Both the position numbers and the translations under genes were made by a program. The notes beneath the pieces are model-generated. The model was not told where the DNA came from, did not search any database, and saw nothing but the letters and a program-made list of their open reading frames with translations. From Thermomonas sp. (GTDB taxonomy: Bacteria; Pseudomonadota; Gammaproteobacteria; Xanthomonadales; Xanthomonadaceae): a stretch of DNA of 64,000 nucleotides. Shown in pieces: positions 37,315 through 41,725 of this stretch (positions are counted from its first letter, which is position 1; every line of letters starts with the position of its first letter). The stretch is taken from positions 1-64,000 of the forward strand of contig NZ_JADZDS010000060.1 of assembly GCF_020850895.1 (NCBI RefSeq), in the 5' to 3' direction.

Positions 37315-37412
37315 CGAAAAGGCGAAAAGGGGTCAGAGAACATTTCCGTTTGAGAGTTGACCTGATGCATGCCTGCACAGGAAATGTTCTCTGACCCCTT
37401 TTCGCCTTTTCG
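37315..37412. repeat. 98-bp element with perfect 33-bp terminal inverted repeats
   Basis: The arms at 37315-37347 and 37380-37412 are exact reverse complements over 33 bp, separated by 32 bp. Each arm contains the core GGGGTCAGAGAACATTTCC, AAAAGG-rich on the outside. Motifs of the form GGGGTCAGAG(T/A)-A/C-CATTT recur around REP-associated tyrosine transposases in gammaproteobacteria, so it may be a REPIN-like or MITE-like mobile palindrome. It lies between the small Cys-rich gene and the cupredoxin operon. As RNA it would form a very stable cruciform/hairpin and could terminate transcription on both strands. Confidence 0.85.
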
Positions 37413-37463: not shown

Positions 37464-38120
37464 ATGCGGACGCGCGCGCTGGCAATGCTGATCCCGTGGC
37501 TGACGCTTGGCGCGATGCCGGCGTTGGCCGGAGACATCGAGGTCAAGTTCGACGACGGCAAGGGCAAGCCGGTGGCGGATGCGGTGTTGTTGCTGCGGCC
37601 TGCAGCGGGCCAGCAAGCGCCTGCGCCGAAGCAGCACACGCGCCACGTGATCGATCAGCGCATGCTGATGTTCCAGCCCTATCTGCAAGTGTTCCGGCCC
37701 GGCGACGAGGTGGTGTTTCGCAACAGCGACAGCACCCGCCACCACGTCTATTCGTTCTCTGCGGCCGGCAAGTTCGAGTTCGTGCTCGCACCTGCGCAAA
37801 GCTCGCCGCCGTTTCGTCTGGATCAGCCGGGCGCGATTGCCGTTGGATGCAATATCCACGACCAGATGATCGCCTACCTCTATGTGACCGATGCGCCCTG
37901 GGTGGCGCAAAGTGATGCATCGGGCAAGGCCGCCATCACCGCTCTGCCACCGGGCGACTACCATTTGCAGGCATGGCAGCCGCGCCTGCGGCCCGGTACA
38001 CCGCTGCCCACGCAGCGCGTGCATGTCGATGCCGGCGGCGGCACGGTGACGGTCTCGGTTTCGCTGCGTCTGCTGCCCGATCCGCGGCTGCGAGCCGGCC
38101 CCGGCCATGTGCACTATTGA
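37464..38120 (+). CDS. Periplasmic cupredoxin-domain protein
   Basis: 218 aa. Signal peptide MRTRALAMLIPWLTLGAMPALAG. The domain has type-1 copper ligands in the expected order: the histidine of TRHHVYSF and the C-N-I-H-D-Q-M block (VGCNIHDQMIAYLYVTDAPW). Between them are EVVFRNSD and FEFVLAPAQ. A carboxy-terminal GKAAITALPPGDYHLQAWQPR looks like a carboxypeptidase-regulatory-like/Cna-B fold. Such proteins are often labelled methylamine utilization proteins. GGGGGTGG precedes the ATG at 37464. Its stop is directly followed by the EAL gene. Confidence 0.85.
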   Translation: MRTRALAMLIPWLTLGAMPALAGDIEVKFDDGKGKPVADAVLLLRPAAGQQAPAPKQHTRHVIDQRMLMFQPYLQVFRPGDEVVFRNSDSTRHHVYSFSAAGKFEFVLAPAQSSPPFRLDQPGAIAVGCNIHDQMIAYLYVTDAPWVAQSDASGKAAITALPPGDYHLQAWQPRLRPGTPLPTQRVHVDAGGGTVTVSVSLRLLPDPRLRAGPGHVHY

Positions 38121-40508
38121 GTGAAGGCCATGGGATTCCGCCTGCGGCTGGCGTCCTTCTTCGTCGCGGTCCTGGTGATCGTGCAGGGGCTGACTGCCTT
38201 GCTGGTCTACCAGGTTGCGCGCCAGCAATTGATCGAAGAGGGACAGCGGCAATTGCAGGTGGCCTCGGCCGCGTTTTCGAAGCAATTGACCGATGTGTCG
38301 CGGCGGGTCGCCGACAGCGTCAACTTGCTGGCGCTGGATTACGCGCTGCGCTCCGCCTTTGCCCAGCACGACGAGGCCACCTTGTTGTCGGCCTTGCGCA
38401 ATCACGGCCGCCGCGTGGGTGCGCGGCAGATGTTCGCCATCGATGCCGAGGGCAGGGTGCAGGCGGATACCGCGGGAACAGTTGCCGCAGGCGCGCGTTT
38501 TCCCTATCCGGACCTGATCGATCATGCGCTCGATCAACCCGCTTCGGCGGTGGTGGCCTGGCAGGGCGGCGCGCAATGGATGGTGGTGGTGCCGGTATTT
38601 GCGCCCAACCTGGTCGGCTTCGTTGCCGCCGTCCTTCCGCTCGACAATCGCCTGCTGGTGCAGTTGCAAGGGCAATCGACCTTGCCGCGCCAGGTCGAGT
38701 TGGCAAGTCGTGGCGGTGATGGGCGCTGGCAGTTGCTGGCGCATGGTGATGCACCGGCGGATCTGACTCGAACCCTGTTGACGCCGCGTGCGCAGCTGCC
38801 GACCCTGCCGCGAACCGCCGAGGTCGCAGGGCGTGAATACGTGGTGCAAGGACTCTGGCTGGATCGCTCCGAGGGCAGTGCGCCGGTCGCTGCCCTGCTG
38901 GGTTATTCGGTGGATGATGCGCTGCGCCCCTATCGCAAGGTGGCTTTTGCCTGGGGCGGAATCAGCCTGCTCGGCTTGCTGGTGGGCCTGGTCGGTGCCT
39001 GGCTGATCGCGCGTGGCATTTCGCGACCGGTGGAGCGACTGGCGGATGCAGCAGGGCGGATCGCGGCCGGCGATTACACACTTGCCGATATCGCCTCGGC
39101 GGAGCCGGGGGGGCGTGACGAACTTGCACAACTGGCGACGGCCTTTGCACGCATGTCTGACGCGATCCGCGAGCGTGAGGCGCGCATCCTGCATCAGGCC
39201 GGTCACGACCAGGTCACGGGACTGGCGAATCGTGCTGCGACGGAAGTGCGCATCGACCACGCCTTGGCGAGCCAGCCTGATACCCCGGCAGCGCTGTTGA
39301 TGATCGCGCTGGAGCGGTTGCCCGAGATCATCAAGACCCTCGGCCATGACGTGTGTGATCGGGTCATGCGTCAGGCCGGCGTGAGCCTGCTGGAGCCGGC
39401 CCGTGGCGCTGAGATCGCGCGCGCGACCGACGGCCAGTTTTCGGTATTTCTCGCTCACGCCAACCGGCAGACGGCGATCGCAACCGCGTTCCGGATCGTC
39501 GAAGCGCTGTCCGAGCCCTATCACGAGGATGATCTGACGCTGGATCTGGCACCGGCGGTCGGGATCGCGCTGGCCCCCGCGCATGGCACCCATGCCGGTG
39601 ACTTGTTGCGCCGTGCCGAGGTCGCCCTGATCGCCACCCGCGGCTCGGATGAGCCGGTCGCCGTGTATGACCCCGCCACCGATCCGCATCGGCCGGATCG
39701 CCTGTCGCTGATGGCCGACCTGCGCGAGGCGCTCGCGCATGACCAAGGTCTGGAATTGCATTACCAGCCCAAGTTGAACCTGCGCAGCGGACGCGTCGAC
39801 TGCGCTGAGGCCCTAGTGCGTTGGCGGCACCCACGGCTGGGCATGGTCTCGCCGGCGACCTTCGTGCCGCTGGCGGAAGAAAGCGGCAACGTCCGCAAGC
39901 TGACCCGCTGGGTGCTGGCCACCGGCATTGCCCAAGCCGGACGCTGGCAGGACGCCGGGCTCGCCATACGCCTGTCCCTCAATATCTCCGCGCGTGATCT
40001 GGACGACAACGAACTGCCGCGGCGCGTCTCCGAATTGCTCACGATCCATCGGGTGAACCCGGGCGGGATCGTGCTGGAGGTGACCGAGAGCGCGATCATG
40101 GGCAAGCCCGATGCCGCCATCGCGGTGCTGCGGCGGTTGGCCGAGCTTGGTGTGGATCTGTCGATCGACGATTTCGGCGTGGGTCAATCCTCGTTTGCCT
40201 ATCTGCGTCGGCTGCCGGTGCGTGAATTGAAGATCGACCAGACCTTCATCCGCCATCTCGGTACATCACGCGAGGATCGTCTGATCGTGCGTTCGATCGT
40301 CGAGCTGGGCCATCACCTCGGTTATCGGATTACCGCCGAAGGCGTGGAAGATCAGGCCGGGTTGGATGGGCTGGCCGAATTCGGTTGCGATCACGGACAG
40401 GGGTATTTGATCGCAAGGCCGATGGACGGCGCGGCATTCGAAGCGTTCCTCGCCGCCGGCCAGTGGTCGGGGCCTGCGGTGGCATCGAATGGGGCAGCAT
40501 CGGCATGA
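38121..40508 (+). CDS. Membrane c-di-GMP phosphodiesterase with degenerate GGDEF
   Basis: 795 aa. TM1 at about residues 7-30, a periplasmic Cache-like sensor region to about 275, TM2 at about 276-300, a HAMP domain, then GGDEF and EAL domains. The GGDEF site reads TDGQF (residues 436-440), so diguanylate cyclase activity is unlikely. The EAL domain keeps E563 in AEALVRWRHP, LNISARDL, LEVTESAIM, SIDDFGVGQSS, LKIDQTFI and AEGVED, so phosphodiesterase activity is likely. GTG 38121 abuts the cupredoxin stop; ATG 38130 is an alternative start. ATGA overlap with the next gene. Confidence 0.9.
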   Translation: MKAMGFRLRLASFFVAVLVIVQGLTALLVYQVARQQLIEEGQRQLQVASAAFSKQLTDVSRRVADSVNLLALDYALRSAFAQHDEATLLSALRNHGRRVGARQMFAIDAEGRVQADTAGTVAAGARFPYPDLIDHALDQPASAVVAWQGGAQWMVVVPVFAPNLVGFVAAVLPLDNRLLVQLQGQSTLPRQVELASRGGDGRWQLLAHGDAPADLTRTLLTPRAQLPTLPRTAEVAGREYVVQGLWLDRSEGSAPVAALLGYSVDDALRPYRKVAFAWGGISLLGLLVGLVGAWLIARGISRPVERLADAAGRIAAGDYTLADIASAEPGGRDELAQLATAFARMSDAIREREARILHQAGHDQVTGLANRAATEVRIDHALASQPDTPAALLMIALERLPEIIKTLGHDVCDRVMRQAGVSLLEPARGAEIARATDGQFSVFLAHANRQTAIATAFRIVEALSEPYHEDDLTLDLAPAVGIALAPAHGTHAGDLLRRAEVALIATRGSDEPVAVYDPATDPHRPDRLSLMADLREALAHDQGLELHYQPKLNLRSGRVDCAEALVRWRHPRLGMVSPATFVPLAEESGNVRKLTRWVLATGIAQAGRWQDAGLAIRLSLNISARDLDDNELPRRVSELLTIHRVNPGGIVLEVTESAIMGKPDAAIAVLRRLAELGVDLSIDDFGVGQSSFAYLRRLPVRELKIDQTFIRHLGTSREDRLIVRSIVELGHHLGYRITAEGVEDQAGLDGLAEFGCDHGQGYLIARPMDGAAFEAFLAAGQWSGPAVASNGAASA

Positions 40509-41725
40509 ACGGCGCATGGCGTCTGGCAAGTGCCTTGCTGGCCTGCGCGCCATCGCTCGCGTGTGCGCAATCGGTATCGGCCCAAGGCTATCTTGACCTG
40601 CGCCTTGCTGGCCCGGCCCGGCAACAGGACTGGACCGATGGTGGCCTCGGCAAGACCCGCTTCGGTGGTGACTCGCAAACCGCGTTCGGTGGTGCTGCCT
40701 TGATTGCGTGGCAGGTCACGCCAAGCGTGCTGGCGTCGGCCACCCTGCAACTGCAGAGCGACCAGCAACGGCCGCTGGACGTGCTGGAGGCCAGTGTCCG
40801 TTGGCGTCCGGCGTCCACCACTGCGTGGCGCTGGTCGGTGAAGCTCGGCGCGTTCTTCCCGCCGGTCTCGCTGGAGAACGATGACGTCGGCTGGACCAGC
40901 CCGTGGATGTTGACACCGTCGGCGATCAACAGTTGGGTCGGTGAGGAATTGCGCAGCACCGGGGTCGAGTTGCGGCTCGAACACCGCGGCGAATCCGCGA
41001 CGTGGAGTGCGGTGGCTTCGGCATATGGCATGAACGATCCTGCCGGGGAATTGCTGGCGGCGCGGGGCTGGGCATTGGGCGATACCAGCTCGGGTCTGTT
41101 CGCCCGCGTGCGCGAGCCGGATGCCTATGCCGCGCGGTTGGGCGTTGCCAGCCCGATGGCCTTTGACCCGTTCCTGGAAATCGACCACCGCATCGGCTGG
41201 TATGCCGGCATCGCCCGCGATGGCGTCGATGGCAGCCGCCTGGCCTTGCTTCGCTATGACAACCGTGGCGACCCGGACGCATGGACCTGGAACGCCGGAC
41301 ATCGCCTGTATGCATGGCGAACGCGCTTTTGGAGCTTGGGTGCGCGTTGGTTGTGGGGCGATGTCGAGCTGCTGTCGCAGGCGATGACGGGAAACACCGC
41401 GTTCGAGCCGGTCGAGGGCCTGTATCTGGACAGCAAGTTCAGCGCCGGCTATCTGCTGCTGGGCTGGAATCCGGGCGGGGCGTGGCAACCGGCGGTCCGC
41501 ATCGACTGGTTCACGGTCCATCAACTGCCGGACACCCTGAGCAATCCGCGCAGTGAGCATGGCAATGCGCTGACGGTCGCGCTCAACTGGCGACCGAATC
41601 CGCAATGGCGCATCACTGGCGAGGTGCTGCGCGTCGACAGTGTGCGCAGTCAGCGGCTGCTGGAAGGCCTGTCACCACGCCAGGTGGATGTGCAGCTGCA
41701 GTTGAGCCTGCGTCGGTATTTCTGA
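40505..41725 (+). CDS. Exported beta-barrel-like protein of unknown family
   Basis: 406 aa with signal peptide MNGAWRLASALLACAPSLACA. The rest alternates polar and aromatic residues with many WxW/YxG patterns. It ends in QVDVQLQLSLRRYF, a C-terminal aromatic residue typical of outer-membrane barrels. The start overlaps the EAL stop (ATGA), so this is the third gene of a coupled operon. No specific family is recognised. The location is inferred, not shown. Confidence 0.7.
   Translation: MNGAWRLASALLACAPSLACAQSVSAQGYLDLRLAGPARQQDWTDGGLGKTRFGGDSQTAFGGAALIAWQVTPSVLASATLQLQSDQQRPLDVLEASVRWRPASTTAWRWSVKLGAFFPPVSLENDDVGWTSPWMLTPSAINSWVGEELRSTGVELRLEHRGESATWSAVASAYGMNDPAGELLAARGWALGDTSSGLFARVREPDAYAARLGVASPMAFDPFLEIDHRIGWYAGIARDGVDGSRLALLRYDNRGDPDAWTWNAGHRLYAWRTRFWSLGARWLWGDVELLSQAMTGNTAFEPVEGLYLDSKFSAGYLLLGWNPGGAWQPAVRIDWFTVHQLPDTLSNPRSEHGNALTVALNWRPNPQWRITGEVLRVDSVRSQRLLEGLSPRQVDVQLQLSLRRYF

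Follow-up and report, generated by a model that had tools for sequence, protein, structure and literature searches.

Parts located in the outer membrane, the periplasm and the inner membrane control c-di-GMP in the YfiBNR / TpbB system, which combines an output cyclase with periplasmic YfiR and an outer-membrane lipoprotein. In the polyamine receptor NspS-MbaA of Vibrio cholerae, a periplasmic protein gates an inner-membrane receptor that carries GGDEF and EAL domains (PMC8967002). The Salmonella GGDEF-EAL protein STM3615 is fed by periplasmic DsbA/DsbB via disulfide oxidation (PMC4143323), and Mrp/Urf2 of Cupriavidus metallidurans is a metal-regulated EAL phosphodiesterase, with the metal acting on transcription of the mer operon (PMC6629876). 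Little is known of the way in which bacteria tie second messengers to the redox or copper state of the periplasm, and for most receptors of this kind no ligand has been identified.

Here we describe a three-gene operon of Thermomonas sp. that encodes an exported cupredoxin-domain protein, a membrane receptor and an outer-membrane beta-barrel. As in STM3615, a periplasmic redox input to a GGDEF-EAL protein is proposed; STM3615 depends on general Dsb enzymes with no dedicated, linked copper protein, whereas this operon has a linked cupredoxin. With Mrp/Urf2 it would share an EAL phosphodiesterase tied to metal, here through a presumed copper signal, but the abstract of that paper describes neither a periplasmic partner nor a sensor domain, and the operon has both. 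A class of copper- or redox-gated sensors with swappable outputs apparently has not been described: our search of literature outside subscription journals found no report of a cupredoxin tied to receptors of the GGDEF/EAL, cyclase or kinase type, although a prior description is possible.

Gene layout and protein domains

The window, the whole 64,000-nucleotide stretch that was analysed, lies on contig C60 of a draft genome of 2.53 Mb. The three genes of the operon are arranged in tandem on the plus strand, and the features discussed below are as follows.

37322..37405, no strand: near-perfect hairpin, 84 bp, just 5′ of the operon (fold −50.5 kcal/mol, both arms found)
37464..38120, + strand: cupredoxin-domain exported protein, 218 aa (open reading frame, invariant ligands, AF2 model, Foldseek to amicyanin)
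37740..37742, + strand: copper ligand H93 (alignments of full-length and distant homologues)
37848..37868, + strand: ligand loop C129-x2-H132-x2-M135 with amicyanin-type spacing (alignments; spacing as in NirK chain 6hbe)
38121..40508, + strand: membrane receptor, dCache_3 - HAMP - degenerate GGDEF - EAL, 795 aa (open reading frame, Pfam)
38244..38882, + strand: periplasmic dCache_3 sensor domain (Pfam; the genome's only copy)
39003..39173, + strand: HAMP domain (Pfam PF00672, 48.5 bits)
39201..39635, + strand: degenerate GGDEF domain, motif TDGQF (Pfam, motif alignment)
39714..40421, + strand: EAL domain with the full catalytic residue set (Pfam, residue alignment)
40505..41725, + strand: outer-membrane beta-barrel, 406 aa, porin-type, "type A" (PF07396, model, Foldseek, family alignments)

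The cupredoxin stop codon (TGA, 38118-38120) is followed directly by the receptor's GTG start at 38121 (an alternative start is the ATG at 38130), and receptor and barrel overlap in the sequence ATGA (barrel ATG 40505-40507, receptor TGA 40506-40508). These contacts bear out the tight coupling of the three genes claimed in a sequence-only reading of this DNA. A sigma-70 promoter scan 5′ of the operon found none. The hairpin, with arms GGGGTCAGAGAACATTTCC, sits between a small upstream gene and the cupredoxin gene; a second copy (83%) is present at C12:17438-17519 on another contig, and the 14-base end of an arm, TGTTCTCTGACCCC, recurs at L219:6269 in the relative G650. It may be a small mobile or REP-like element.

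In the receptor, Pfam recognizes EAL (235.6 bits), GGDEF (71.5), HAMP (48.5) and, across residues 42-254, dCache_3 (PF14827), whose 37.5 bits exceed the curated cut-off of 25.7. The genome contains nine EAL domains and a single dCache_3 protein, the receptor of the window. All catalytic residues of the EAL domain (E, N, E, D, D, K, E, Q) are present, and they are essentially invariant across 128 linked homologues. The GGDEF motif is intact in 29 of these 128; in the window it reads TDGQF and departs from the GG[DE]EF active site, so that cyclase activity is unlikely, and the domain is probably a regulatory relic. Pfam and residue alignment thus uphold the architecture first read from the letters: periplasmic sensor, HAMP, degenerate GGDEF and intact EAL site. 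The nearest named relatives in the receptor tree are from Lysobacter and Pseudoxanthomonas, which most likely places the host within the Lysobacteraceae.

The first protein carries the type-1 copper ligand set H93, C129, H132 and M135, and the spacing of its loop, C-x2-H-x2-M, is that of amicyanin. Its sole Pfam match is a CarboxypepD_reg-like C-terminus below cut-off. A profile of 72 relatives matched copper nitrite reductases in the PDB (E 8e-4 and 2e-3) and, more weakly, blue-copper protein and plastocyanin; the matched NirK chain 6hbe has identical ligand-loop spacing. The AlphaFold (AF2) model (pLDDT 92.5, pTM 0.86) adopts the cupredoxin Greek-key fold, and Foldseek places it with NirK, pseudoazurin, amicyanin and plastocyanin (E about 1e-6 to 1e-5; TMt up to 0.70-0.78, about 0.70 for amicyanin). 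Strand order in the model, taken with the Pfam match, suggests a cupredoxin core inserted in a carboxypeptidase-regulatory-like sandwich.

The His-Cys-His-Met ligands are kept in 152/152 full-length homologues and 20/20 distant ones, an invariance that is biased for the named-genome scan, whose motif patterns included the ligands; the phylum sample and the distant homologues came from searches with profiles or full-length proteins, not from ligand motifs. The type-1 ligand set proposed earlier is confirmed to this extent, and the exported protein would presumably bind copper.

PGAP names relatives of the cupredoxin "methylamine utilization protein", and with the amicyanin spacing of the ligand loop this could suggest a service in methylamine metabolism. 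We find such a role highly improbable. The neighbourhoods that were read hold no mau genes, and the cupredoxin is linked instead to receptors and barrels. A search of the genome for the methylamine dehydrogenase light chain (PF02975) gave no match, though the control genomes gave none either. The reading draws its support from the database name and was set aside.

Recurrence of the gene neighbourhood

Homologues of the cupredoxin occur in 88 of 250 genomes of the order and in 82 of 399 genomes of the phylum. Conservation of the trio in other genomes had been named beforehand as a check on the sequence-only reading, and the neighbourhood does recur across the phylum. In an unselected phylum sample of 51 full-length cupredoxin loci, scored with profiles built in this analysis, a dCache_3/HAMP receptor adjoins the cupredoxin in 43, a barrel in 44, and one or the other in 49. 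Among 80 named loci from the motif-based scan the corresponding counts are 75, 60 and 79. The gap between cupredoxin and receptor has a median of about 20 nt, and the two genes share a strand in 132/138 cases.

Carriers of the module include plant-associated and environmental Pseudomonas. Six Pseudomonas loci (L096, L097, L105, L119, L155, L156) have a further dCache-EAL gene immediately 5′ of the cupredoxin gene, and so two receptors per cupredoxin.

Loci without a receptor bear on a different account, in which the cupredoxin works with the barrel as an ordinary carrier of electrons, or handler of copper, in the periplasm, while the receptor senses something else and merely co-regulates the pathway. 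Cupredoxins are classical electron carriers, and the phylum sample includes receptor-free cupredoxin-barrel pairs (6/51) as well as a cupredoxin alone (2/51). Two of the receptor-free pairs (L174, L179) follow genes that, named by eye from their sequences, resemble those for a TonB receptor and a PiuC dioxygenase, a setting compatible with iron uptake. At such loci the cupredoxin would appear either to have a receptor-independent function or to pair with a receptor encoded elsewhere, and cupredoxin and barrel together may serve a separate function. However, the receptor is retained beside the cupredoxin in 43/51 loci despite complete changes of output, and no consistent redox enzyme appears across the loci that were read. 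We therefore regard the electron-carrier account as unlikely, while giving it real weight.

Within the genus the operon is patchy, with a close homologue in 3 of 25 genomes. The relative G650 carries a trio with 92-99% identity (92 for the cupredoxin, 99 for the sensor region, 96 for the barrel) between the same flanks as in the window, clpA and an MFS gene, whereas the same-genus genome G146 has related flanks and lacks the trio at that site. This distribution indicates that the operon is subject to gain and loss. It is also what might be cited for a chance adjacency of three unrelated genes, but the same neighbourhood recurs in different classes and phyla, where the outputs vary, the genome's only dCache_3 protein sits in this operon, and the trio is closely conserved in G650. 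The recurrence in the phylum sample refutes chance adjacency, to which we assign a negligible probability.

In the neighbourhoods that were read, the trio has no genes for copper resistance or copper transport beside it, which speaks against the copper-gated reading preferred below. A role in anti-phage defence was also considered and rejected, PADLOC returning no match for the cupredoxin or the barrel.

Exchange of outputs and barrels

In most loci the cupredoxin and the dCache-HAMP input are followed by an EAL domain, but other outputs take its place. Eight loci, from Riflebacteria, Verrucomicrobiota, Methylococcaceae and others, carry a class III nucleotide cyclase by profile, with a Pfam Guanylate_cyc match for L089. 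Four alphaproteobacterial or unclassified proteobacterial loci have a HisKA/HATPase output, all with a type A barrel, and their receptors form one clade (SH-aLRT 98) within the EAL/barrel-A clade. More distant cupredoxins (28-35% identity; L223-L242) precede dCache-like/HAMP receptor Ser/Thr kinases: the next open reading frame has an HRDxKPxN-type kinase motif at 17/20 of these loci, Pfam confirms Pkinase at three, and PAS/HisKA hybrid kinases are found at two distant loci.

The third gene of the module belongs to one of three families. Type A is the barrel of the window, with a predicted outer-membrane, porin-type fold (pLDDT 91.5) whose closest Foldseek relatives are 16-stranded porins such as OmpT, VhChiP and OprP. 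Its match to PF07396 (Phosphate-selective porin O/P) reaches 26.4 bits against a cut-off of 20.9 over residues 270-400 only, and the family profile matches porin P weakly (E=0.23). Type B is DUF3034 (PF11231, 345-368 bits). Type C is a separate family of about 295 aa with weak generic matches to outer-membrane barrels. Merging type A and DUF3034 into one barrel family was tried and rejected, the profiles being unrelated (hhalign probability 0.6%), and the window barrel has no Pfam match to PF11231.

In the reciprocal direction, a comparison of coordinates places DUF3034 within about 3.5 kb of a module cupredoxin in 19/24 DUF3034-carrying genomes, and this family of unknown function thereby gains its first functional context. 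Barrel A or DUF3034 also lies near some of the distant Ser/Thr-kinase loci (L223-L242). Two loci in the same genus as the window (L221, L222) have a second cupredoxin paralogue, a receptor-like stub without an output and then DUF3034, where the stub assignment reflects weak profile scores of 32-40 bits, and Pfam gave no match for the single stub that was scanned. The annotated gene order on plasmid pSBC2-4 of Caballeronia sp. SBC2 (L243) is DUF3034, truncated hemoglobin, "methylamine utilization protein" and EAL protein; the truncated hemoglobin gene may hint that the signal is redox or a gas.

Because the output changes while the input parts stay, the retained cupredoxin and barrel would belong to the input side, and the comparison of loci supports c-di-GMP as just one output among several. 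The link between cupredoxin and sensor advanced by the sequence-only reading is well supported, since the cupredoxin stays with the periplasmic sensor as outputs change. Its description of the locus as a c-di-GMP system would hold in the window, where the EAL catalytic residues are intact, but not as a specific property of the module, in which cyclase or kinases can replace that output. It had also offered the barrel as an outer-membrane partner or output. A downstream output is rejected, since the barrel is kept where the outputs are kinases; a place on the input side is favoured instead, with three exchangeable families able to fill it.

Partial correlations of pairwise distances are higher between cupredoxin and sensor (0.39) than between cupredoxin and GGDEF (0.31) or EAL (0.10). 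They agree with the cupredoxin acting as a co-sensor and are only suggestive, as faster-evolving domains carry more signal.

The barrels could instead point to a small ligand that enters through the barrel and is sensed by the receptor, with the cupredoxin as the ligand's binding protein or chaperone and the copper structural or protective. dCache domains usually bind small ligands, and the exchange of porin-type barrels among three families looks as if some channel were needed. Yet three unrelated barrels speak against a single specific substrate, and the full type-1 ligand set is invariant, beyond what structural metal sites usually keep. We consider a barrel-imported ligand of this kind quite improbable.

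Proposed mechanism and relation to known systems

The reading that we prefer, with confidence a little above even, is an envelope-spanning module in which the cupredoxin is a co-sensor that gates the dCache_3 receptor by its copper or redox state, with the barrel on the input side. The exported cupredoxin would hold copper in its type-1 site and serve as a dedicated periplasmic co-sensor, docking on the dCache_3 domain, which would read its copper-loading or redox state. HAMP would relay the change into the cytoplasm, where in the window the EAL domain would then hydrolyse c-di-GMP. The barrel is probably a channel that admits the relevant ion, ligand or electron-donating compound to the periplasm. 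Copper or redox is the presumed signal because the ligand set is invariant; the docking and the sign of the c-di-GMP response are likewise putative.

More tentatively, and with confidence somewhat short of even, the loci may represent a large receptor family in which a cupredoxin-dCache input and an outer-membrane channel report periplasmic copper or redox to at least four kinds of output, namely c-di-GMP hydrolysis, cyclic nucleotide synthesis, histidine phosphorelay and Ser/Thr phosphorylation. A dedicated cupredoxin partner would give a concrete, testable input to orphan signalling proteins in the hundreds: c-di-GMP enzymes, cyclases, histidine kinases and receptor Ser/Thr kinases.

The fold and type-1 ligand set of the cupredoxin are those of amicyanin, pseudoazurin and plastocyanin, and its loop spacing is shared with amicyanin. 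Unlike these proteins, it is about 218 aa long with extra N- and C-terminal strands (the CarboxypepD_reg-like part), and its gene is linked to receptors and not to dehydrogenases. YfiBNR / TpbB resembles the module in distributing its parts among outer membrane, periplasm and inner membrane, but has neither a cupredoxin nor a porin, and the module has both.

NspS-MbaA and the module both pair a periplasmic partner with an inner-membrane GGDEF/EAL receptor, although for the module the docking is presumed. The partner of MbaA is a polyamine-binding periplasmic protein (NspS/PotD-like), whereas here it is a cupredoxin, and the output of the module is widely swapped, unlike that of NspS-MbaA. To our knowledge, no outer-membrane barrel gene forms part of NspS-MbaA. 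By this comparison, the module is best read as a new form of the receptors with periplasmic partners that NspS-MbaA exemplifies.
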